A DNA stretch of 20,934 nt, from contig JAUWFX010000012.1 of NCBI GenBank assembly GCA_030606765.1, positions 1 to 20,934 on the forward strand, in the 5' to 3' direction. The position numbers and the translations under genes are program-made. Of the stretch, positions 3,220 to 20,934 are shown one piece after another. Under the pieces are notes generated by a model. The model was not told where the DNA came from, searched no databases, and was given only the letters and a program-made list of their open reading frames with translations. Source of the DNA: Dehalococcoidia bacterium (GTDB lineage: Bacteria > Chloroflexota > Dehalococcoidia > GIF9 > AB-539-J10). The first letter of the stretch is position 1, and every line of letters begins with the position of its first letter.

Positions 3220-4359
3220 TTAGCTCTGAATAATGTTGTAGGTTTTGATTTCCCCTCCATATACCACCACGGGGGGGAATGGGAATGTGCTAGCTTTAGA
3301 CACGTAAGTAAAGGAGCCATCTTTATCGATTTCTATTCCAGCTCCTATAACACTTCCAATTACAGTCATATCCTTGTCGAATGAAATTGTACCGTTGGGA
3401 GCATATATGAATGCCTCTATCGATAATTCATCAGCGGAGTCGCTCTTCTTAAGAGTAATATCACCGTTAAGGGACATGATAATACTATCACCCGTGACGG
3501 TGTAATCGGCCAGCTTGCTCAGATAGATATCACCTTCGGCAACTAGGGAACCTGTCCCCGTGATTGTAAGCGTTTTATCGCACCTAACATAGCCTTCAAC
3601 GTAGACTACACCTGCAAGCGTAATCGTAACGTTTTGTTCGATGTTAAGGTTTCCAGTGATATGTTTTGGCCCTAAGGTCATATCAGAGCCTATTGTCATG
3701 TCGCCTGTATGAGTTCCCCCGACTAGTGCCTCTTCTTCGAATTGCTGGGCAAATGCCTCATTTTGTTCCTGAGTCGGGAATACAGATAGGGGAACTTTTA
3801 CCTGGTCTCCATCCGTATGCGTATAGTCTTTTCCTATAATTCCTCCAACGTAATAGACATCACCTGTTACTGCACAGTCTTTATGAAATGTTACATCACC
3901 AGAACTTACGATAGCACCACCAAGTAGATCAAAAGTCTGAGCCTCTACGTATGCCTCAACCGCGGTACTGCTGTCGATGGCCGCAGTACCGCCACCGTCG
4001 TCGATGGCCGCTATTGAGGTAATACTGTAAGTTGACCAATCTACAAATTCTATAGTGACCTGCACGTTTCTTCCATTTACATCGGTTATAGTGTAAATCC
4101 TGGGCAGGCTGCCCGGGCTGCAGGGCAAGTAACCTGCTTCACTGGGATGCTGTATCTTCCATATGGCATCTTCTACCCCGGCATCGGCGGCATAAAGCTC
4201 AGCCGTCCTTTTTTCGTAGACTTCACCGGCGAGAATGCCGCTGCCCATATGACCCAGCAGCGCAGCGGAGAGAAGCCCGCCGATAAGGAGCAGAATGAGA
4301 GCCAGGATCAGCGCCGCCCCTTTTTCATCTCTTACTAGCTTCTTCATCACACTTTTCAT
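3220..4359 (-). CDS. PilX/GspK-like minor pilin with beta-helix C-terminus (copy 2)
   Basis: This 379-residue paralog of the gene at 1686-2825 shares the class III signal ('RDEKG' then 'AALILALILLLIGGLLSAA', cleavage after Gly, no Glu at mature position 5) and the 'YEKRTAELYAADAGVEDAIW' helix that follows. The C-terminal part is a run of short beta rungs (for example 'GDVTFHKDCAVTGDVYY', 'GNLNIEQNVTITLAGVVYV', 'GDITLKKSDSADELSIEAF'), typical of bactofilin-like beta-helices. Identity to copy 1 is high at the N-terminus and weak beyond, so the exposed part has diverged. ATG 4359 follows GGGTGAAAGG and gives the same leader length as copy 1. It has its own promoter and terminator. Its C-terminus differs from that of copy 1, whose tail survives only as the frameshifted relic just downstream, so this protein may have lost its original end. 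Confidence 0.8.
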   Translation of the reverse strand: MKSVMKKLVRDEKGAALILALILLLIGGLLSAALLGHMGSGILAGEVYEKRTAELYAADAGVEDAIWKIQHPSEAGYLPCSPGSLPRIYTITDVNGRNVQVTIEFVDWSTYSITSIAAIDDGGGTAAIDSSTAVEAYVEAQTFDLLGGAIVSSGDVTFHKDCAVTGDVYYVGGIIGKDYTHTDGDQVKVPLSVFPTQEQNEAFAQQFEEEALVGGTHTGDMTIGSDMTLGPKHITGNLNIEQNVTITLAGVVYVEGYVRCDKTLTITGTGSLVAEGDIYLSKLADYTVTGDSIIMSLNGDITLKKSDSADELSIEAFIYAPNGTISFDKDMTVIGSVIGAGIEIDKDGSFTYVSKASTFPFPPVVVYGGEIKTYNIIQS

Positions 4360-4430: not shown

Positions 4431-4469
4431 TTTAGTACATTGGTCCTGTTAATTCCACTGCCCAACGCA

Positions 4470-4503
4470 GAGATTGCTTCGTCGCTCTGCTCCTCGCAAT
4501 GAC
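4470..4503. repeat. Hairpin repeat, family A
   Basis: GAGATTGCTTCG, a short imperfect centre, then CTCGCAATGAC. The outer arms ATTGC/GCAAT are conserved; the inner stem is weaker than in other copies. Confidence 0.6.
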
Positions 4504-4862
4504 GAAGGAGGAAAGCGCCCCGCAAAGACAGGTAGGCAAGGATTGCGGAGCCTGTTCCGAGCGTAGGCGAGGAATCTCCTGCCTGCCAAAGACAGATGGA
4601 GCCCGAGATTGCCAGTAGCTCTTCACGACCACCATATCTTTCCATGCGTCTCATAGTATGAATAACCTATTACCTTCGTTATATTATTAGTCGCTGGAGA
4701 AACGAAAATCCCTCGCTTTCGCAGTACTTTTGGGGGATTTGCTGGGGACTAGCGGGAAGAAACCCAAATGTTAAAATCCAAATGACAATTGAAATCCAAA
4801 TGCCAAAGCTCAAATGGCAATTCAAACCCGAATTCCTGATGCCAAGACTATTTCTTGCCTTG

Positions 4863-4975
4863 AATGTCCCCCTAAAAGTAAGGCCCTTTTCTTAAATGTC
4901 CCCCTTAGATTAAGGGGGATAAAAGGGGTTATTTTCGTAACTCCCCTAGGCCCCTCTTATCTTAAGAGGGGGATT
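4863..4975. repeat. CCCCCTTA/TAAGGGGG hairpin block (family D)
   Basis: Two near-perfect hairpins occur here: TCCCCCTTA-GAT-TAAGGGGGA (4899-4919) and CCCCTCTTA-TCT-TAAGAGGGG (4951-4971), with degenerate related arms before and between them. No other full copy is seen in the window, only a resembling CTAAGGGGGAGA before the antitoxin gene. Confidence 0.6.
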
Positions 4976-5077
4976 CTTCGAAAAATTGATGAAATCAGGT
5001 TGCTCAGGTGGCAAAACCGTTTAGTCCTTTGGATTTTGGTCATTTGATATTGTTTAGAGTTTAGAGTTTCCCCTTCA

Positions 5078-5113
5078 GAGATTGCTTCGGCACTATTGTG
5101 CCTCGCAATGACA
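5078..5113. repeat. Hairpin repeat, family A
   Basis: GAGATTGCTTC, inner stem GGCAC-TATT-GTGCC, then TCGCAATGACA. It lies downstream of the toxin gene. Confidence 0.65.
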
Positions 5114-5124
5114 GGAGGAGGGAT

Positions 5125-5152
5125 GTCATTCTGAGCCGAAGGCGAAGAATCT
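5125..5152. repeat. Hairpin repeat, ATTCT/AGAAT variant, reaching the toxin stop codon
   Basis: GTCATTCTGAGCC-GAA-GGCGAAGAATCT. Its last two bases form part of the toxin stop codon (TAG on the minus strand, 5151-5153), so the repeat abuts the coding region. Confidence 0.6.
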
Positions 5153-5405
5153 AAATTTTATAAATCTCACTCCTGTGACCTATAAACTGAATTACGATTA
5201 TCTTACCTTCCACAGTATAAACTGCTCTCCAATTTCCTATACGCAACTTAAATGTTCCTTTCAATTCACCAGTTAAAGGCTCAGGGACAATACTTTGGAA
5301 ATTTTTAGAAAACCAAGCGAGCCTTCTCAAAATTCTTCGGGCTATTGGCTTATCAAGCCTTTCAAGGTCTTTTGTTGCTCCCTCAGTCCACTCAATCTTA
5401 ACCAA
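5151..5405 (-). CDS. RelE/ParE-family toxin
   Basis: This 84-residue protein has the RelE/ParE pattern: an N-terminal strand and helix ('VKIEWTEGATKDLERLDKPI', residues 2-21), a helix pair, then 'LTGELKGTFKLRIGNWRAVY' (44-63) and 'VIQFIGHRSEIY' (71-82). In this superfamily the toxin either cleaves mRNA at the ribosome (RelE) or poisons gyrase (ParE). The sequence alone does not decide which, though the conserved basic residues R55, R60 and R78 are present. It overlaps the antitoxin gene by 8 bp, the usual coupled layout with antitoxin first. The pair interrupts the pilus locus between the second prepilin and PilX-like copy 2 and is flanked by hairpin repeats, which suggests arrival as a cassette. 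Confidence 0.85.
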   Translation of the reverse strand: MVKIEWTEGATKDLERLDKPIARRILRRLAWFSKNFQSIVPEPLTGELKGTFKLRIGNWRAVYTVEGKIIVIQFIGHRSEIYKI

Positions 5406-5586
5406 TCCTGCTCACTACCTCATGATGTGGAATCCTGCTTGAGGGATTTTCCAGGCGCCTTTTCAGTTCCTGTTTAAATTCCTCCTTCAGTTCTAGCCCG
5501 GAGTCGGGGTCCCCGAGAACCTCTAAGATTTTCTGCTCTATTAAATACTCCAACTCATCAATGGTTAGGTCTTTAACATTTGTCAT
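5398..5586 (-). CDS. Antitoxin of the RelE/ParE pair
   Basis: A 62-residue acidic, mostly helical protein ('LTIDELEYLIEQKILEVLGD', then 'DSGLELKEEFKQELKRRLEN'). I know similar small proteins paired with RelE-type toxins in several bacterial phyla, but I cannot name the Pfam family with certainty. It would bind and neutralise the toxin encoded by the overlapping gene, and probably represses the operon. The N-terminal half lacks an obvious helix-turn-helix or AbrB fold. GGGGGAG six bases before ATG 5586 supports the start. No good promoter is seen upstream. Confidence 0.75.
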   Translation of the reverse strand: MTNVKDLTIDELEYLIEQKILEVLGDPDSGLELKEEFKQELKRRLENPSSRIPHHEVVSRIG

Positions 5587-5746
5587 CTCTATCTCCCCCT
5601 TAGCTTAATCAGACCACGTTGTCCTACTTAATTTCAAAAACTACTCCGCTTCTCAGTAATATACCATCGCCTAGGAAGTCTGTCCACTGGTTTCTCGGAA
5701 ACATTCGCCTTTCCAGTATCCTTAGCTGCAACCACAGCAAACTTTT

Positions 5747-5796
5747 GTAGTTGCCTGATTTATCAGGCCAGGTTGCCCAATTTATTGGGCAATTAC
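5747..5796. repeat. Double-hairpin element, family B (copy 1)
   Basis: GTAG, then hairpin GCCTGA-TTTA-TCAGGC (5753-5768), then hairpin TTGCCCAA-TTTA-TTGGGCAA (5773-5792), then TTAC. Both loops are TTTA. The layout matches the copies at 6664, 7239 and 11250, but the stem sequences differ. Confidence 0.65.
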
Positions 5797-5803
5797 AACT
5801 TTT

Positions 5804-5829
5804 GTCATTGCGAGCGAAGCGCGGCAATC
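5804..5829. repeat. Hairpin repeat, family A (short form)
   Basis: GTCATTGCGAGCGAAGCG then CGGCAATC. It is in opposite orientation to the three copies that follow at once. Confidence 0.6.
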
Positions 5830-5844
5830 CCATTGGCACCCACC

Positions 5845-5880
5845 GAGATTGCTTCGGGGCTTTCGCCCCTCGCAACGACA
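5845..5880. repeat. Hairpin repeat, family A
   Basis: GAGATTGCTTC, inner stem GGGGC-TTTC-GCCCC, then TCGCAACGACA. Confidence 0.65.
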
Positions 5881-5896
5881 GGGGGGAAGGTCCACC

Positions 5897-5932
5897 GAGA
5901 TTGCTTCGGCACTGTCGTGCCTCGCAATGACA
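5897..5932. repeat. Hairpin repeat, family A
   Basis: GAGATTGCTTC, inner stem GGCAC-TGTC-GTGCC, then TCGCAATGACA. It is nearly identical to 5078-5113, with the loop changed. Confidence 0.65.
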
Positions 5933-5946
5933 AGGGGGGAACAGCA

Positions 5947-5984
5947 GGATTGCTTCGGCTGACTTCGTCAGCCTCGCAATGACA
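5947..5984. repeat. Hairpin repeat, family A
   Basis: GGATTGCTTC, inner stem GGCTGAC-TTC-GTCAGCC, then TCGCAATGACA. It is followed by GTGTCATTGCTCCAAAC, an extension shared with the copy at 11110. Confidence 0.65.
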
Positions 5985-6040
5985 GGAGGAGAGTGTCATT
6001 GCTCCAAACAAATCCTTTTAAAATGTAAAAATAAAAGTGC

Positions 6041-11048: not shown

Positions 11049-11109
11049 TAGGACTTTTGGGGGGTTCTTTGCGGGTTCTAGTGGATTGGCAGGGAACAAG
11101 TCCCTCCAC

Positions 11110-11148
11110 GAGATTGCTTCGGCTGACTTCATCAGCCTCGCAACGACA
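11110..11148. repeat. Hairpin repeat, family A
   Basis: GAGATTGCTTC, inner stem GGCTGA-CTTCA-TCAGCC, then TCGCAACGACA, followed by GTGTCATTGCTCTAAAC. It is the closest relative of the copy at 5947-5984, including the downstream extension. Confidence 0.65.
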
Positions 11149-11249
11149 GAATGAGGGTGTCATTGCTCTAAACTGTTTCGATCATTGGTATTTGGGGCTT
11201 TGATATTGTTTAGGACTTGGTGCTTGGGATTCAGGATTTCTTCAATACC

Positions 11250-13191: not shown

Positions 13192-14856
13192 ATGACAAGG
13201 CCAATTGAGCTACTGCGTCAGGGGAGAAAAGAAGAGCTATGGCAGATGTGCTGCGGCTTTATTACCCTCAGCCTGGAGGAGTTTATGACTATCCAGAAGA
13301 GACTGCTTCTGGAGGAGATTGAGCTATTAAAGAACAGCGAGCTTGGCAAGAGGGTGATGCGTGGTGCCATGCCTGAGACGGTGGAAGAATTCCGGGAGCA
13401 GGTGCCATTGACCACCTACTCTGATTACCTACCTGAGCTTGTGGAAAAAAGGGAAGACGTGTTGCCGACCAATCCTGCCATGTGGGTGCATACGGTAGGC
13501 AGGGTTGGTGAATATAACCTCAAATGGGTGCCCTTATCCGAGAGATTCTTATATGAATTTGTGAGGGCGGCTGGTGGCGTTGGGCTTCTTGCCTCCTGTG
13601 ACCCTCAAGGCAATTTTCTCGTGAAAGAACATCTGAAAACTCTGTCCACTATGGCATCTCGAAATTATGGATCAGGCGTTGTGGGATACTTAATGCAACA
13701 AGCTCTTGGCTTTGACCTCCTGCCTGCCAATGCCGAGGAAATGACATTTCAAAAGAAGATGGAAGCTGGCTTTAAGGAGGCTTTGTGTCAGGGTCTTGAT
13801 TCTTTCGGTGGCTTGCCCTCTATCTTGGTTTATATCGGGGAGATGTTTAAGCGAGGAGCCATAAGTGTAGATACTCGTTTTTTGCTATCTCATCCCAAAG
13901 CATCTGTTCGCTTCATTAAAGGATTAATCAAGAGCAAGTTGGCTCACCGTCCTATGTTGCCTAAAGATTTATGGTCTGTGAAGGTAGTTGTGGGTGGTGG
14001 CATGGACAGTGCCATTTTCGGGAAAGGGATAGAAGAGCTGTGGGGGAGGAAACCTCTGGAGCTGTATGGTGGCACTGAGGGCGGTATTTATGCCGTTCAG
14101 ACTTGGGATTACGAAGGTATGACTTTTATTCCCAACCTCAACTTTTTTGAGTTCATTCCCGAGAGGGAACACTTCAAATGGCAACTTGACCATTCCTATC
14201 AGCCGAAGACTATTTTACTGGACGAGGTAAAAGCAGGCGAGAATTACGAAATAGTCATCACCAATTTCCATGGCGGTATTATGACTCGATATAGACCTGG
14301 CGATATGGTCAGGATAAGTTCGTTGCGAAATGAAAAACTGAATATTGATATTCCGCAGATGGTATTCTATAGCAGGGCTGATGACCTTATTGATATTGCT
14401 AGTCTTGGTCGGCTGACAGGGAGGATAATCGAGGAGGCAGTTGAAAACACTGACATCGCCTATGTGGATTGGGTAGCACGCAAGGAACTAATTGATAATA
14501 AACCTGCGCTGCATCTCTATCTTGAGCCTAGAAATGAATATATTGCCAGTGAGGAAGGTATGGCAGCAGCGATACGCGAGCAATTTAAGAAATTAGATAG
14601 GAAATATCGGTGCAACTTCTACAGCCTTATTGGCAATATGGAAACTGTGCTTGGCTTAAAGCCCCTAGAGGTTACTTTGCTCCCTCAAGGCGCCTTTTCC
14701 AGCTATATGACTCAACGGCAAGCTGAGGGCGCCGATTTAGCTCACCTGAAGCCACCACATATTAACCCTTCGGATGAAATGCTTTCCTTACTCGGAGCAC
14801 CCAAGGTTGTGGTGGAGGCTGCGCCGGTAACTGAAGCCGAACGTGCAGCTGCTTGA
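13192..14856 (+). CDS. GH3-family acyl-acid amido synthetase-like protein
   Basis: At 554 residues it matches the GH3 branch of the ANL adenylating superfamily. In plants these enzymes adenylate jasmonate or auxin and join the acyl group to an amino acid; bacterial substrates are mostly unknown. ATP-binding motif 2 is clear ('YGGTEGG', 292-298), as is motif 3 ('TRYRPGD', 365-371). Motif 1, normally a Ser/Thr/Gly-rich loop, is 'HTVGRVGEYNLKWVPLS' (100-116), with fewer Ser/Thr than usual, so ATP handling may be altered. The C-terminal cap runs from about residue 400. AGAGG seven bases before ATG 13192 fixes the start. It is followed by a strong terminator and appears monocistronic, with no promoter that I could define. 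No neighbour hints at the substrate. Confidence 0.88.
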   Translation: MTRPIELLRQGRKEELWQMCCGFITLSLEEFMTIQKRLLLEEIELLKNSELGKRVMRGAMPETVEEFREQVPLTTYSDYLPELVEKREDVLPTNPAMWVHTVGRVGEYNLKWVPLSERFLYEFVRAAGGVGLLASCDPQGNFLVKEHLKTLSTMASRNYGSGVVGYLMQQALGFDLLPANAEEMTFQKKMEAGFKEALCQGLDSFGGLPSILVYIGEMFKRGAISVDTRFLLSHPKASVRFIKGLIKSKLAHRPMLPKDLWSVKVVVGGGMDSAIFGKGIEELWGRKPLELYGGTEGGIYAVQTWDYEGMTFIPNLNFFEFIPEREHFKWQLDHSYQPKTILLDEVKAGENYEIVITNFHGGIMTRYRPGDMVRISSLRNEKLNIDIPQMVFYSRADDLIDIASLGRLTGRIIEEAVENTDIAYVDWVARKELIDNKPALHLYLEPRNEYIASEEGMAAAIREQFKKLDRKYRCNFYSLIGNMETVLGLKPLEVTLLPQGAFSSYMTQRQAEGADLAHLKPPHINPSDEMLSLLGAPKVVVEAAPVTEAERAAA

Positions 14857-14954: not shown

Positions 14955-14984
14955 CAGATTCTTCGCCAGCAGCCCAGAATGACA
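14955..14984. repeat. Degenerate hairpin repeat, AGATTCT variant of family A
   Basis: CAGATTCTTCG, a degenerate centre, then CCAGAATGACA. The outer arms ATTCT/AGAAT are kept. Confidence 0.5.
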
Positions 14985-18334: not shown

Positions 18335-19054
18335 ATGCCATTCTGGGAAATATATTCATATTTTTATAGTTTGTCTTTAAGAAACTGGTTCCCTTATGGG
18401 TGCCTTTTAGAAGACCTAAATAATACATTAGACATCAGAGAACGGGAGAATATTTTAGATGCTGGTTGCGGACCCGGACTGGTAATAGAAAAAGTTATTG
18501 AAGAACATACGGGAAAAAGAATAAGCGTTATAGGTCTAGATTTTAGCAGGGGAATGATAAAGCGCGCTCGCAAGAGATGTAAAAATTTTTCTAATGTAAA
18601 GCTTCAAATTGCCGATTTAAACAAAAACCTGGAGTTTCCCGGTAATTTTTTTGATAAAGTGATTTGCTCTAATACACTTTATGCCCTTGAAAACCCACAT
18701 AGAGTCATTTTTGAATTTTACAGAGTTTTAAAGCCGGGCGGTGCAGTGATTATTGCCAACCCCAAACCCAACGCCGGAGAAAAAGAACTCATGAGAGAAC
18801 ATCTAACGGCACTTAAAAAAATCACTCCAATTTACAAGAAAATTTACCATATTTTCATATTTCTTCTACTCATTCCTGTAAATTCAGTTGTTATCACGAT
18901 AAATAAAGTCATCATTGAGAAAGGGGAAGGCAAAGAATATCACTTCTTAGGCAAAGAGGAATTACAAAAAATTCTTCAAGAAGTCGGTTTTACGAGTATC
19001 GACATAAGCTCTTGCTACGTTGATCAAGACTGGCTGGTGAGAGCGGAAAAATAA
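18335..19054 (+). CDS. Class I SAM-dependent methyltransferase, UbiE/Methyltransf_11-like
   Basis: At 239 residues it has a class I methyltransferase core: motif I 'ILDAGCGPG' (40-48), the acidic end of strand 2 ('VIGLDFSRGMIKRA'), the 'DLNKNLEFPGNFFDKVIC' region, and 'EFYRVLKPGGAVII' for motif III. A hydrophobic stretch 'IYHIFIFLLLIPVNSVVITI' near residues 170-190 is unusual for a soluble enzyme and may be a membrane or lipid-substrate contact. The substrate is not predictable. The gene is clearly more A+T-rich than its neighbours (many AAA, AAT and TTT codons), which suggests recent transfer. The start at ATG 18335 has no good ribosome site, so it is less certain than the fold. Confidence 0.8.
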   Translation: MPFWEIYSYFYSLSLRNWFPYGCLLEDLNNTLDIRERENILDAGCGPGLVIEKVIEEHTGKRISVIGLDFSRGMIKRARKRCKNFSNVKLQIADLNKNLEFPGNFFDKVICSNTLYALENPHRVIFEFYRVLKPGGAVIIANPKPNAGEKELMREHLTALKKITPIYKKIYHIFIFLLLIPVNSVVITINKVIIEKGEGKEYHFLGKEELQKILQEVGFTSIDISSCYVDQDWLVRAEK

Positions 19055-19297: not shown

Positions 19298-19948
19298 TTA
19301 GCAGTTCTTTACCAGAACACATATGTTGCGTGAGAAATTTCTTATCGGAAGGTGATAGGACTTCTCCGGTGACATAGTAACGATTTCCCAGCCAGTTTTG
19401 ACTAGTAGCTTTCTTAGCTCGCCATAAGAGAAAAGGTGATAGTAGCGGTAAACTATTTTCCCTTTTAGCCTCCAAGGGACCTGTTGTTCTTTGGATTTTA
19501 GCCAGAAGCCTGGTTGTCCATGGTTCCACACGGTCAAAAAAGCCTCGCCCTGGGGCTTTAATACCCGCTTTAATTCTACGAATGCTTTTTCCCTTTCCAC
19601 TCTGTCTTTGATGTGGTGGTAAGTAGCCACTGATATTGCCCAATCGAAGGTATCATTGGGGAAGGGCAGGGATAAGGCATCAGTGGCTATTAAGTTGACA
19701 TAAAGCTTAAACTTGGCAGAATATCTCAGAGCTTGCTTGAGCATGGCAGGGGAGGAATCTACCCCCCAGAGTTCAAAGCCCTGGCTGAAAGGCAAGAAGT
19801 CCGGTCCGTGAGCACAGCCCACATTTAGCAGCTTTCCGCTTTGCCATCTTGTCGCCAGCTCCTCTAACTCTTTTTTTAATAAAGGCCAATGCCTCACCCG
19901 ATACCAGCTTTCAGCTATTTTGTCGAAAACTTCTCTATTTGTGGTCAT
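19298..19948 (-). CDS. Trm9/ALKBH8-like tRNA wobble uridine methyltransferase
   Basis: A 216-residue class I methyltransferase with motif I 'LLNVGCAHGPD' (40-50), the acidic D64 in 'WGVDSSPAML', and 'DALSLPFPNDTFDWAISVAT' (90-109) followed by 'YHH'. Two features point to Trm9/ALKBH8 rather than a generic methyltransferase: the N-terminal 'VFDKIAESWYRVRHWPL' resembles the family's 'YxxIAxxFxxTRxxPW', and 'VYRYYHLFSYGELRKLL' (166-182) closely matches the conserved 'YRYYHLxxxGEL' of yeast Trm9. 'VPW' (157-159) is also shared. Trm9 methylates cm5U34 in tRNA to mcm5U34, the step after Elp3. elp3 is the next gene, divergent. The comparison is from memory, so generic methyltransferase remains possible. 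A -10 TATAAT (19975-19980) and palindrome GCTAAACTTTAGC lie upstream; the ribosome site is weak. Confidence 0.72.
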   Translation of the reverse strand: MTTNREVFDKIAESWYRVRHWPLLKKELEELATRWQSGKLLNVGCAHGPDFLPFSQGFELWGVDSSPAMLKQALRYSAKFKLYVNLIATDALSLPFPNDTFDWAISVATYHHIKDRVEREKAFVELKRVLKPQGEAFLTVWNHGQPGFWLKSKEQQVPWRLKGKIVYRYYHLFSYGELRKLLVKTGWEIVTMSPEKSYHLPIRNFSRNICVLVKNC

Positions 19949-19959
19949 AGATACACTTT

Positions 19960-19972
19960 GCTAAACTTTAGC
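19960..19972. promoter_or_regulatory. 13-bp palindrome in the leader of the Trm9-like gene
   Basis: GCTAAACTTTAGC, with arms GCTAAA/TTTAGC around one central base, lies just downstream of the TATAAT at 19975-19980 and 11 bp before the start codon. It could be an operator or a small leader hairpin. Confidence 0.4.
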
Positions 19973-19974
19973 AT

Positions 19975-20001
19975 ATTATAGTGAAATGCTCATGATCGCA
20001 A
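19975..20001 (-). promoter_or_regulatory. Possible promoter of the Trm9-like gene
   Basis: On the minus strand TATAAT (19975-19980) is perfect. The best -35, TTGCGA (19996-20001), is only four of six bases with a short 15-bp spacer. Confidence 0.4.
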
Positions 20002-20071
20002 TTGTCTATGCTGTCACCCTGAGCCAAAGTTATGACTCTGAACGAAGTGAAGAGGAATTGAGTGGAGAGGC

Positions 20072-20101
20072 GAGATTCTTCGCCTTCGCCTCAGAATGAC
20101 A
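20072..20101. repeat. Hairpin repeat, ATTCT/AGAAT variant
   Basis: GAGATTCTTCG, a short centre, then CGCCTCAGAATGACA. It is the reverse-orientation relative of 5125-5152. Confidence 0.6.
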
Positions 20102-20112
20102 CTTTCATCCTA

Positions 20113-20149
20113 TCATTTCGAGGCTGACGAAGTCAGCCGAAGCAATCTC
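20113..20149. repeat. Hairpin repeat, family A (inverted copy)
   Basis: Reads TCATTTCGA, inner stem GGCTGAC-GAA-GTCAGCC, then GAAGCAATCTC, the reverse complement of the 5947 type with one outer mismatch. Confidence 0.6.
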
Positions 20150-20162
20150 ATGGAAGGGTAGG

Positions 20163-20190
20163 GGATTGCTTCGCTCCGCTCACAATGACA
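20163..20190. repeat. Hairpin repeat, family A (short form)
   Basis: GGATTGCTTCGC-TCC-GCTCACAATGACA, with no extended inner stem. Followed by a fragment GCTCAGAATGACA that ends about 13 bp before the elp3 start. Confidence 0.55.
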
Positions 20191-20225
20191 TTAGGGAGAA
20201 AGGCTCAGAATGACATGGAGCTAGC

Positions 20226-20934
20226 ATGAAGAAAGCATCTCGAACTATCTCTGGAGTAACCCCGGTAGCAGTTATGGCCAAGCCATTTCCTTGCCCGGGC
20301 AAATGTGTTTATTGCCCCAGTTCTCCTGAGGCGCCCAAGAGCTATACCGTGGAGTCTCCAGCGGTGCTCCGAGCTCGAAGTTGTGGCTTTAATTCCAAAA
20401 AGCAGGTGGAGGTCAGGCTCAGGACATTGGCTGAAATGGGACATGCCCAGGATAAGGTAGAGCTTCTCATCATGGGGGGCACCTTTCTGTCTTATCCCCG
20501 GGACTATCAGTATCAGTTTATTAAGGATTGCTATGATGCTCTGAACGGCATCCCCTCTAGCAGTTTAGAGGAAGCCAGGGAATTGAATGAAAATGCTGAG
20601 CACCGCTGTGTGGGATTGTGCATCGAGACCAGGCCTGACTTTTGTGGGGAGGAGGAGATAAAGAGCATGCTCGATTTTGGCGCCACGAGGGTGGAGCTTG
20701 GGGTACAGACCCTGGACGATGAGGTTCACTGCCTGACAAAGAGGGGACACGGGGTGGCTGAGGTGATCTCCGCGACCAGGCTATTACGAGATTATGGCTT
20801 TAAGGTGTACTATCATTGGATGCCTGGTTTACCAGGGTCAACACCTGAGCATGACCTGGAGCTATCGCGGCAATTGTTTGAAGACGAGCGCTTTCGACCT
20901 GACGGGCTCAAGCTTTATCCCACGCTGGTAGTTC
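20226..20934 (+). CDS. elp3: Elp3-family radical SAM tRNA uridine-34 carboxymethylation enzyme (partial)
   Basis: The frame is open for 236 codons to the right edge. It matches Elp3 almost word for word: 'RTISGVTPVAVMAKPFPCPG' (6-25), cysteines C23, C27 and C30 for the iron-sulfur cluster (CX3CX2C), 'VELLIMGGTFLSYP', 'CIETRPDFC', 'RVELGVQTLDDEV' and 'FRPDGLKLYPTLV'. Elp3 uses SAM and acetyl-CoA to install a carboxymethyl group on U34 of tRNA; the acetyltransferase half lies outside the window. The protein begins only about 20 residues before the cysteine motif, so it lacks the long N-terminal tRNA-binding region of eukaryotic Elp3. GGAG five bases before ATG 20226 fixes this start. It is divergent from the Trm9-like gene across 277 bp of hairpin repeats. 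Confidence 0.95.
   Translation, partial: MKKASRTISGVTPVAVMAKPFPCPGKCVYCPSSPEAPKSYTVESPAVLRARSCGFNSKKQVEVRLRTLAEMGHAQDKVELLIMGGTFLSYPRDYQYQFIKDCYDALNGIPSSSLEEARELNENAEHRCVGLCIETRPDFCGEEEIKSMLDFGATRVELGVQTLDDEVHCLTKRGHGVAEVISATRLLRDYGFKVYYHWMPGLPGSTPEHDLELSRQLFEDERFRPDGLKLYPTLVV

Follow-up and report, generated by a model that had tools for sequence, protein, structure and literature searches.

Can a bacterium make an esterified wobble uridine of the eukaryotic kind with two genes? The question is raised by one end of a 20,934-nucleotide stretch of Dehalococcoidia DNA (contig JAUWFX010000012.1 of assembly GCA_030606765.1, positions 1 to 20,934; hereafter the window), where an elp3 gene stands head to head with a gene for a Trm9-like methyltransferase. 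A preliminary description of the sequence had seen here a possible bacterial route to 5-methoxycarbonylmethyluridine at tRNA position 34 (mcm5U34). As a gene-level prediction this holds, on the pairing of the genes, the residues and profiles of the methyltransferase and the absence of MnmE and MnmG; the nucleoside is predicted. We consider it likely that elp3 and the methyltransferase form a minimal wobble-uridine pathway to mcm5U34 and, with MnmA, to its 2-thio derivative mcm5s2U34, in place of MnmE/MnmG. The basis computed here comprises gene pairing, co-occurrence, MnmE/MnmG absence, residue conservation and predicted fold, while we infer what the methyltransferase acts on, that its product is the ester, and that thiolation follows. 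Both mcm5U and mcm5s2U are treated as eukaryotic nucleosides, and the pairing predicts which nucleoside occurs in a bacterium with a solved Elp3 structure. If the prediction is true, it provides a two-gene model for the side chain and a Trm9 that may work without Trm112. The features of the locus are as follows.

19298..19948, minus strand: Trm9-like class I S-adenosylmethionine (SAM)-dependent methyltransferase, 216 amino acids (coordinates include the stop codon)
20226..20933, plus strand: elp3, 5' 236 codons, cut by the window end (full length 448 amino acids in the relative L001)
19949..20225, no strand: divergent intergenic region, 277 bp from start to start, with copies of dispersed palindromic repeats inside
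19892..19894, minus strand: codon of R19, aligned with yeast Trm9 R29
19613..19618, minus strand: codons of H111 and H112 (HH pair), counterpart of yeast Trm9 H115
19430..19447, minus strand: RYYHLF motif, residues 168-173, with the counterparts of yeast Trm9 R241 and Y243
19325..19327, minus strand: codon of N208, where the last strand of the structural model begins, counterpart of yeast Trm9 N271

The sequence IVYRYYHLFSYGELRK is present in the window at the methyltransferase/elp3 locus. The head-to-head arrangement described earlier, with a 216-residue methyltransferase divergent from elp3, was confirmed at 19298-19948 (minus) and 20226-20933 (plus). The elp3 fragment matched profile positions 57-300 of the ELP3 model TIGR01211 with 325.8 bits; that it stays under the cut-off of 350, set for whole proteins, is due to the gene being cut at 236 amino acids. 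The full-length elp3 of the close relative L001 (L and G numbers are our labels for loci and genomes) scored 559.9 bits over positions 57-522 of 522, in line with the earlier view that the gene is unmistakable. Pfam matches of the 216-residue protein were generic methyltransferase domains. It reached no NCBIfam cut-off, its best UbiE model scoring 36.3 bits against 216.

The pair recurs well beyond the window. Nine clear relatives, in assemblies named Dehalococcoidia, Chloroflexota or Chloroflexi, and two weak ones were found; the assemblies nearest to the window are Dehalococcoidia. In a class sample of 148 genomes (methyltransferase threshold E <= 1e-20), the methyltransferase and Elp3 each occurred in 24 genomes, and the two genome sets were identical. 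The genes were adjacent and divergent in 23 of these, while G085 carried them on different contigs, in the case of the methyltransferase at the contig end. A phylum sample of 301 genomes (strong methyltransferase matches, E < 1e-90; Dehalococcoidia-type elp3, E < 1e-160) contained Elp3 in 52, of which 24 were of the Dehalococcoidia type and 28 of a longer, more distant type with 38-50% identity in the best piece. Strong methyltransferase and Dehalococcoidia-type elp3 matches fell in the same 24 genomes and were adjacent in 24/24; the family profile also gave eight weak matches in this sample (E 1.1e-20 to 5.4e-19). The two samples joined gave 31 pair-bearing genomes, with the genes adjacent and divergent in 30 (G085 being the exception). 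The adjacency thus exceeds chance and is conserved among the pair-bearing genomes, and the idea that it is unique to the window was rejected.

Among the 29 related loci with a measured start-to-start gap, it was 16-294 bp in 28; in L007, where the genes are divergent too, it reached 3070 bp. Clustering of the neighbouring genes at 21 loci placed elp3 in 20, the methyltransferase in 19 and the next best-kept cluster, a GNAT protein, in 12, followed by ruvB in 11 and the queuosine synthesis gene queH in 7. These counts fall short by three, the methyltransferase of L120 and of L127 and the elp3 of L130, all of which the gene coordinates place at their loci. Since the pair is kept while its neighbours change, a working link between elp3 and the methyltransferase is suggested.

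The usual bacterial enzymes for this position were not detected in the pair-bearing genomes. Searches for MnmE, MnmG, MnmA and Trm112 covered the genomes other than G002-G009. In the class sample, MnmG was found in 39/148 genomes and MnmE above the cut-off in 34/148, with none above the cut-off in the 24 pair-bearing class genomes. Zero overlap between the pair and MnmG arose by random draw in 3 of 10,000 cases, a figure that ignores kinship. Across all elp3-bearing genomes, with either Elp3 type, MnmG and MnmE were each found in 0/59, and matches were obtained in 9 of 14 control genomes; for the pair-bearing genomes the check on mnmE and mnmG suggested earlier gave 0/31. Elp3 as an extra beside MnmE/MnmG was rejected on the class-sample and 0/59 results. 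Sub-cut-off MnmE matches in pair-bearing genomes covered, among the matches listed, approximately positions 192-369 of 446; these were taken for the GTPase domain common to other proteins, and none remained under a stricter limit. An assembly gap is an unlikely cause of the absence in eight genomes (G022, G058, G077, G092, G133, G155, G380, and G424), because the locus there lies on a contig of 1.12-2.07 Mb that is approximately the whole stated genome.

The bacterial 2-thiolase MnmA was found in 53/59 elp3-bearing and 27/31 pair-bearing genomes (not found in G019, G020, G056, and G080). Because of its presence in 27/31, mcm5s2U34 is a predicted product beside mcm5U34. Trm112 (PF03966) was searched for in the class sample, which holds 24 of the 31 pair-bearing genomes. 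It was found in 117/148 class genomes. Among the 24 pair-bearing ones it was a separate small open reading frame (ORF) in 11 and lay within a larger ORF in two (G092 and G144), and it was not found in 11, including the near-single-contig genomes G022, G058, G077, G133, and G155. Trm112 is therefore neither tied to the pair nor always present.

The assignment of the methyltransferase to the Trm9 type comes first from its residues. According to the accessible text of a 2017 review (PMC5372719), mutation of yeast Trm9 R29, H115, R241, Y243, or N271 strongly affects tRNA affinity and activity. We aligned 31 rows of the window family with 12 fungal Trm9, 9 haloarchaeal, and 16 other-methyltransferase (outgroup) rows. 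The column of R19 held arginine in 31/31 family, 12/12 fungal, and 9/9 haloarchaeal rows and in 0/16 outgroup rows. The pair H111-H112 was HH in 31/31, 12/12, and 9/9, with histidine at H112 in 5/16 outgroups. R168 was arginine in 31/31, 12/12, and 9/9 and in 3/16 outgroup rows; it discriminates less, since a second alignment has arginine at this column in 7/14 outgroup rows. Y170 was tyrosine in 29/31 family rows (valine in two), 12/12 fungal, 9/9 haloarchaeal, and 2/16 outgroup rows. N208 was asparagine in 31/31 family rows and stood opposite a gap in the 68-row alignment; it fell on the Trm9 asparagine in two other alignments, one of which gave 19/19 family, 12/12 fungal, 9/9 haloarchaeal, and 0/14 outgroup rows. 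Four of the five yeast active-site counterparts (R, H, R, and N) are thus invariant in the family and the tyrosine is kept in 29/31.

Sequence and profile comparisons pointed to Trm9 as well. The family was 28-34% identical to the eight fungal Trm9 rows aligned with it. Alignment A1 held 27 rows. In a single-sequence search of the PDB the best match was 5cm2_Z, "tRNA methyltransferase" (E 7.3e-14), with an alignment that runs across the RYYHL motif; by its entry title this is the Yarrowia Trm9 of the Trm9-Trm112 complex, and it was also first in a profile search with the family. Profile-profile comparison gave E 2.7e-33 to fungal Trm9 and 1e-27 to the haloarchaeal set. The family profile matched E. 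coli UbiE with E 7.7e-13 and CmoM with E 5.5e-8 over residues 5-143 only, and these are not like for like: UbiE and CmoM entered as single sequences, so the comparison favours the Trm9 and haloarchaeal profiles. With that limit, the proposed profile check of Trm9 versus UbiE came out for Trm9. An AlphaFold2 model of the methyltransferase (predicted local distance difference test score 90.4) superposed on 5cm2_Z with VIA-align at 1.8 A over 171 residues with 27% identity, the lowest root-mean-square deviation and highest identity among the 50 rows listed; the list is no evidence against families outside those rows. Database annotation agrees with this in part: among the best 120 matches listed, the JGI name is tRNA (uracil-5-)-methyltransferase TRM9 for several members of the family and UbiE for others. 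A plasmid search gave one haloarchaeal protein with Trm9-like motifs, the rest being weak generic methyltransferases, some of which served as outgroups.

Molecular phylogenetic analysis gave mixed results. Tree 1 (68 rows) held 31 family rows; L001, L003, L020, L030, and L039 had been omitted as near copies, L028 because no start codon was found, and L008, L009, and L042 as fragments. Loci L012-L019 and most of L077-L099 duplicate genes already used. This tree placed the family, fungal Trm9 and the haloarchaeal Trm9-like proteins on one side of a branch with support 95/92. Tree 2 (70 rows) held 19 of the 31 family rows, with a second distant methyltransferase family added and outgroup rows L010 and L011 dropped; an outer branch there (92/91) takes in other rows besides the family and Trm9. 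In approximately unbiased (AU) tests, holding the family together with the Trm9 clade (p 0.341), or doing so with the second family included (p 0.254), was not rejected. UbiE as sister to the family was rejected in tree 1 (p 0.0154); with no NCBIfam cut-off reached either, an ordinary UbiE-type enzyme was rejected. CmoM was not sister to the family in either tree.

Several observations weigh against a Trm9-type pathway and are gathered here. The clade of the family with Trm9, seen in tree 1, was not recovered in tree 2, where the outgroup row L100 joins the family at 96/91. AU tests left the family free to join single long outgroup rows, namely CmoM (p 0.215) and the 239-residue methyltransferase of the window (p 0.317), as well as two weak Chloroflexota matches (p 0.156). 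The mixed trees are read as too little signal in approximately 220 columns, and for that reason the identification rests on residues, profile scores and gene pairing. Among the VIA-align rows listed, 5cm2_Z is 14th by Z (21.1 versus 22.6), and the Foldseek E-value puts an uncharacterised clostridial methyltransferase just above Trm9, with 5cm2_Z second; the modelled fold is generic and widespread and is no proof of function. Nor can the co-occurrence counts be treated as independent, as the genomes are related and one ancestral acquisition may suffice. Within the class sample, Elp3, MnmG and MnmE all fell below the search thresholds in 82/148 genomes. The absence of MnmE/MnmG is therefore not specific and alone does not call for Elp3, and many relatives in the class seem to have no known modification at C5 of U34. 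According to the accessible text of a 2020 review (PMC7663514), the bacterial Elp3 that had been tested showed very weak acetyl-CoA activity.

The pairing of the genes, together with the usual bacterial enzymes not being found, suggests that a eukaryote-type mark is probably made here by a slimmed-down route. In the proposed pathway, Elp3 alone would use acetyl-CoA and radical chemistry to turn U34 of split-box tRNAs into 5-carboxymethyluridine (cm5U). With SAM as methyl donor, the Trm9-like enzyme would then convert the cm5U34 carboxylate to the ester mcm5U34, and MnmA would add sulfur to yield mcm5s2U34 in tRNA-Lys, -Glu, and -Gln. The two-gene route would stand in for MnmE/MnmG and would run without a recognisable Trm112 in the genome with the crystallised Elp3 and in several others. 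For the first step, the accessible portions of published papers report that an archaeal Elp3 forms cm5U in vitro and that bacterial Elp3 hydrolyses acetyl-CoA when triggered by tRNA.

The genome with the crystallised protein is G058. Its Elp3 was identical over all 459 residues to 5l7j_A, which we take to be the Dehalococcoides mccartyi Elp3 entry, and its Trm9-like methyltransferase gene lies 43 bp from elp3. In G022 the two genes are arranged likewise, and the Elp3 is closely similar. Beside the pair in the crystallised-Elp3 genome (L114, 4663-7004) lie ruvB, queH (queuosine, position 34) and the GNAT gene. Dehalococcoides Elp3 is thus already known and crystallised, and is called DmcElp3 in papers; the accessible parts of that literature describe Elp3 alone, and no mention of the neighbouring methyltransferase was found in them. 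Direct evidence of Elp3-derived nucleosides in Dehalococcoides was missing according to the same 2020 review, as far as its available text goes (PMC7663514).

The pair was compared with known systems. It resembles eukaryotic Trm9 and the methyltransferase domain of ALKBH8 in fold, SAM domain, N-terminal arginine, HH pair, RYYHL motif, last-strand asparagine and link to Elp3. It differs in being bacterial, in its 28-34% identity to fungal rows and in a shorter stretch before RYYH (ALKBH8 was not aligned). Whereas eukaryotic Trm9 works with the activator Trm112, the latter was undetected in 11/24 genomes here. The archaeal systems, in Sulfolobus solfataricus and as predicted for Haloferax volcanii, likewise have Elp3 without other Elongator subunits together with a Trm9 homolog, and in S. 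solfataricus the two genes are clustered like the bacterial pair (accessible text of PMC2584109 and PMC5372719). Archaeal thiolation is assigned to Tuc1 in the available source text, whereas the Chloroflexota have bacterial MnmA, and the bacterial methyltransferases form their own group in both trees, apart from archaeal Trm9. The MnmE/MnmG pathway likewise targets U34 at C5, and in tRNAs of this kind, but uses other chemistry, and was not found in the 59 elp3-bearing Chloroflexota genomes. E. coli CmoM shares the class I fold but is without the aligned Trm9 arginine and HH pair and gives a weak profile match.

Published accounts were consulted in their accessible parts, to which the following statements are limited. 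A 2008 paper reported the Sulfolobus solfataricus Elp3/Trm9 clustering and predicted a Haloferax nucleoside similar, not identical, to mcm5s2U (PMC2584109). The 2017 review knows no bacterial homologs of Trm112-partner methyltransferases and states that the yeast side chain with thiolation takes at least 15 proteins (PMC5372719), and in another 2020 review neither mcm5U nor mcm5s2U is listed for any bacterium (PMC7694415). In a 2024 study of 23 bacterial species, a figure legend on bacterial and mammalian use names mcm5U and mcm5s2U, the group of each not being shown (PMC11708014). A title-level search of the open-licence literature found no title on a bacterial Elp3-Trm9 pair, and a search there for papers that join Elp3, Chloroflexi and tRNA modification gave none.

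A second pair was found with the longer Elp3 type. Ten ORFs that flank elp3 genes of the long type had mixed Pfam annotations, and one encoded a methyltransferase. A haloarchaeal profile searched against the 28 long-Elp3 genomes and three first-pair genomes matched in 12/31, beside elp3 in six of the long type. That Pfam methyltransferase and these matches beside elp3 led to the recognition of a second family of approximately 240 amino acids, present in 23 of the 28 regions with longer elp3 (L138-L165) and divergent from it in 23/23. Start gaps ranged from -201 to 1992 bp, with negative values because the most upstream start was taken for elp3, and two of the 23 copies were cut by the fetched end. 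The second methyltransferase was not found in the fetched stretch of G330, G285, G314, G242, and G372; the G285 contig ends approximately 3.4 kb upstream of elp3, and a weak haloarchaeal-profile match lies elsewhere in the genomes of G242, G314, and G372.

The alignment of this second family (A5) held 16 of the 23 linked members, L146 and L151 being cut and L159-L163 lying outside the set. Its profile also found 5cm2_Z first in the PDB (E 8.9e-12), and matched the first family with E 4.6e-23 and fungal Trm9 with E 2e-19. The HH pair was kept in 16/16, as were the arginine and, within RYxH, its R and H, while V, A, or T stood at the Trm9 tyrosine and G, A, or S at the Trm9 asparagine. The second type, without the Tyr and Asn, does not show the full Trm9 residue pattern. 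It may be distantly related to Trm9, with an unchanged or a shifted function, and its specificity may have changed. On balance we lean slightly towards a wider reading, in which the Chloroflexota have two lineages of Elp3 plus carboxyl-methyltransferase, each a divergent pair, that would replace MnmE/MnmG in making mcm5U34 and, with MnmA, mcm5s2U34, with Elp3 acting alone and Trm112 not obligatory.

Other explanations of the first pair were weighed against the same data. The methyltransferase might esterify cm5U34 only for the ester to be an intermediate converted further, for example to the amide 5-carbamoylmethyluridine (ncm5U), with mcm5U not accumulating. In their accessible parts, one paper reports ncm5U accumulation in a yeast trm9 mutant and proposes an extra step (PMC3110198), and the 2017 review reports ncm5U in the archaeon Thermoplasma (PMC5372719). 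However, the pair has no other candidate gene as a constant neighbour, since even the GNAT protein, which is kept most often, reaches 12/21 loci, and we regard such a conversion as improbable.

It also seems unlikely that the enzyme belongs to the broad Methyltransf_11 group and methylates small molecules or proteins, its adjacency to elp3 reflecting a shared regulatory region. Its Pfam domains and fold are generic, and the AU tests do not reject attachment to single outgroup rows, but R19 separates 31/31 family from 0/16 outgroup rows, placement as sister of UbiE is rejected (p 0.0154), and the pair persists amid changing neighbours. That a second, distant methyltransferase type occupies the same divergent position beside a second elp3 type in 23/28 genomes argues in the same direction.

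CmoM also esterifies a U34 carboxylate. An enzyme that, like E. coli CmoM, methylates a position-34 carboxyl other than the cm5U of Elp3, such as that of uridine 5-oxyacetic acid (cmo5U), is very improbable: the fold is common to both, CmoM standing in row 38 of the VIA-align list, and the join with CmoM in tree 1 is not rejected (p 0.215), but the profile similarity to CmoM is weak (E 5.5e-8, residues 5-143, against 2.7e-33 to fungal Trm9) and the pairing with elp3 is strict (cmoA and cmoB were not searched for). The esterification of cm5U34 to mcm5U34 thus remains our preferred prediction.

Further features of the window concern the surroundings of the pair. A scan of 19900-20300 for promoters and terminators found none. 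Several copies of dispersed palindromic repeats occur in the window, including between the methyltransferase and elp3; repeats of the GATTGCTTCG...CAATGACA type lie at 4451-6009, 11102-11173, 14956-14984, and 20073-20189. A RelE/StbE-type toxin homolog (5151-5405; TIGR02385, 38.1 bits against a cut-off of 27.9) sits amid repeat elements. Adjoining the Trm9-like gene is the second class I methyltransferase of the window (18335-19054, 239 amino acids), kept at the same place in L001 (96% identical) and L022 (57%). A GH3-family protein is encoded at 13192-14856, with homologs near the pair in L001, L003, L004, L005, and L006. Finally, 1686-2828 and 3220-4359 are paralogous genes of approximately 380 amino acids each, 80% identical over 221 nt around their starts; from the ORF translations, they presumably belong to an apparent type IV pilus or secretion cluster.

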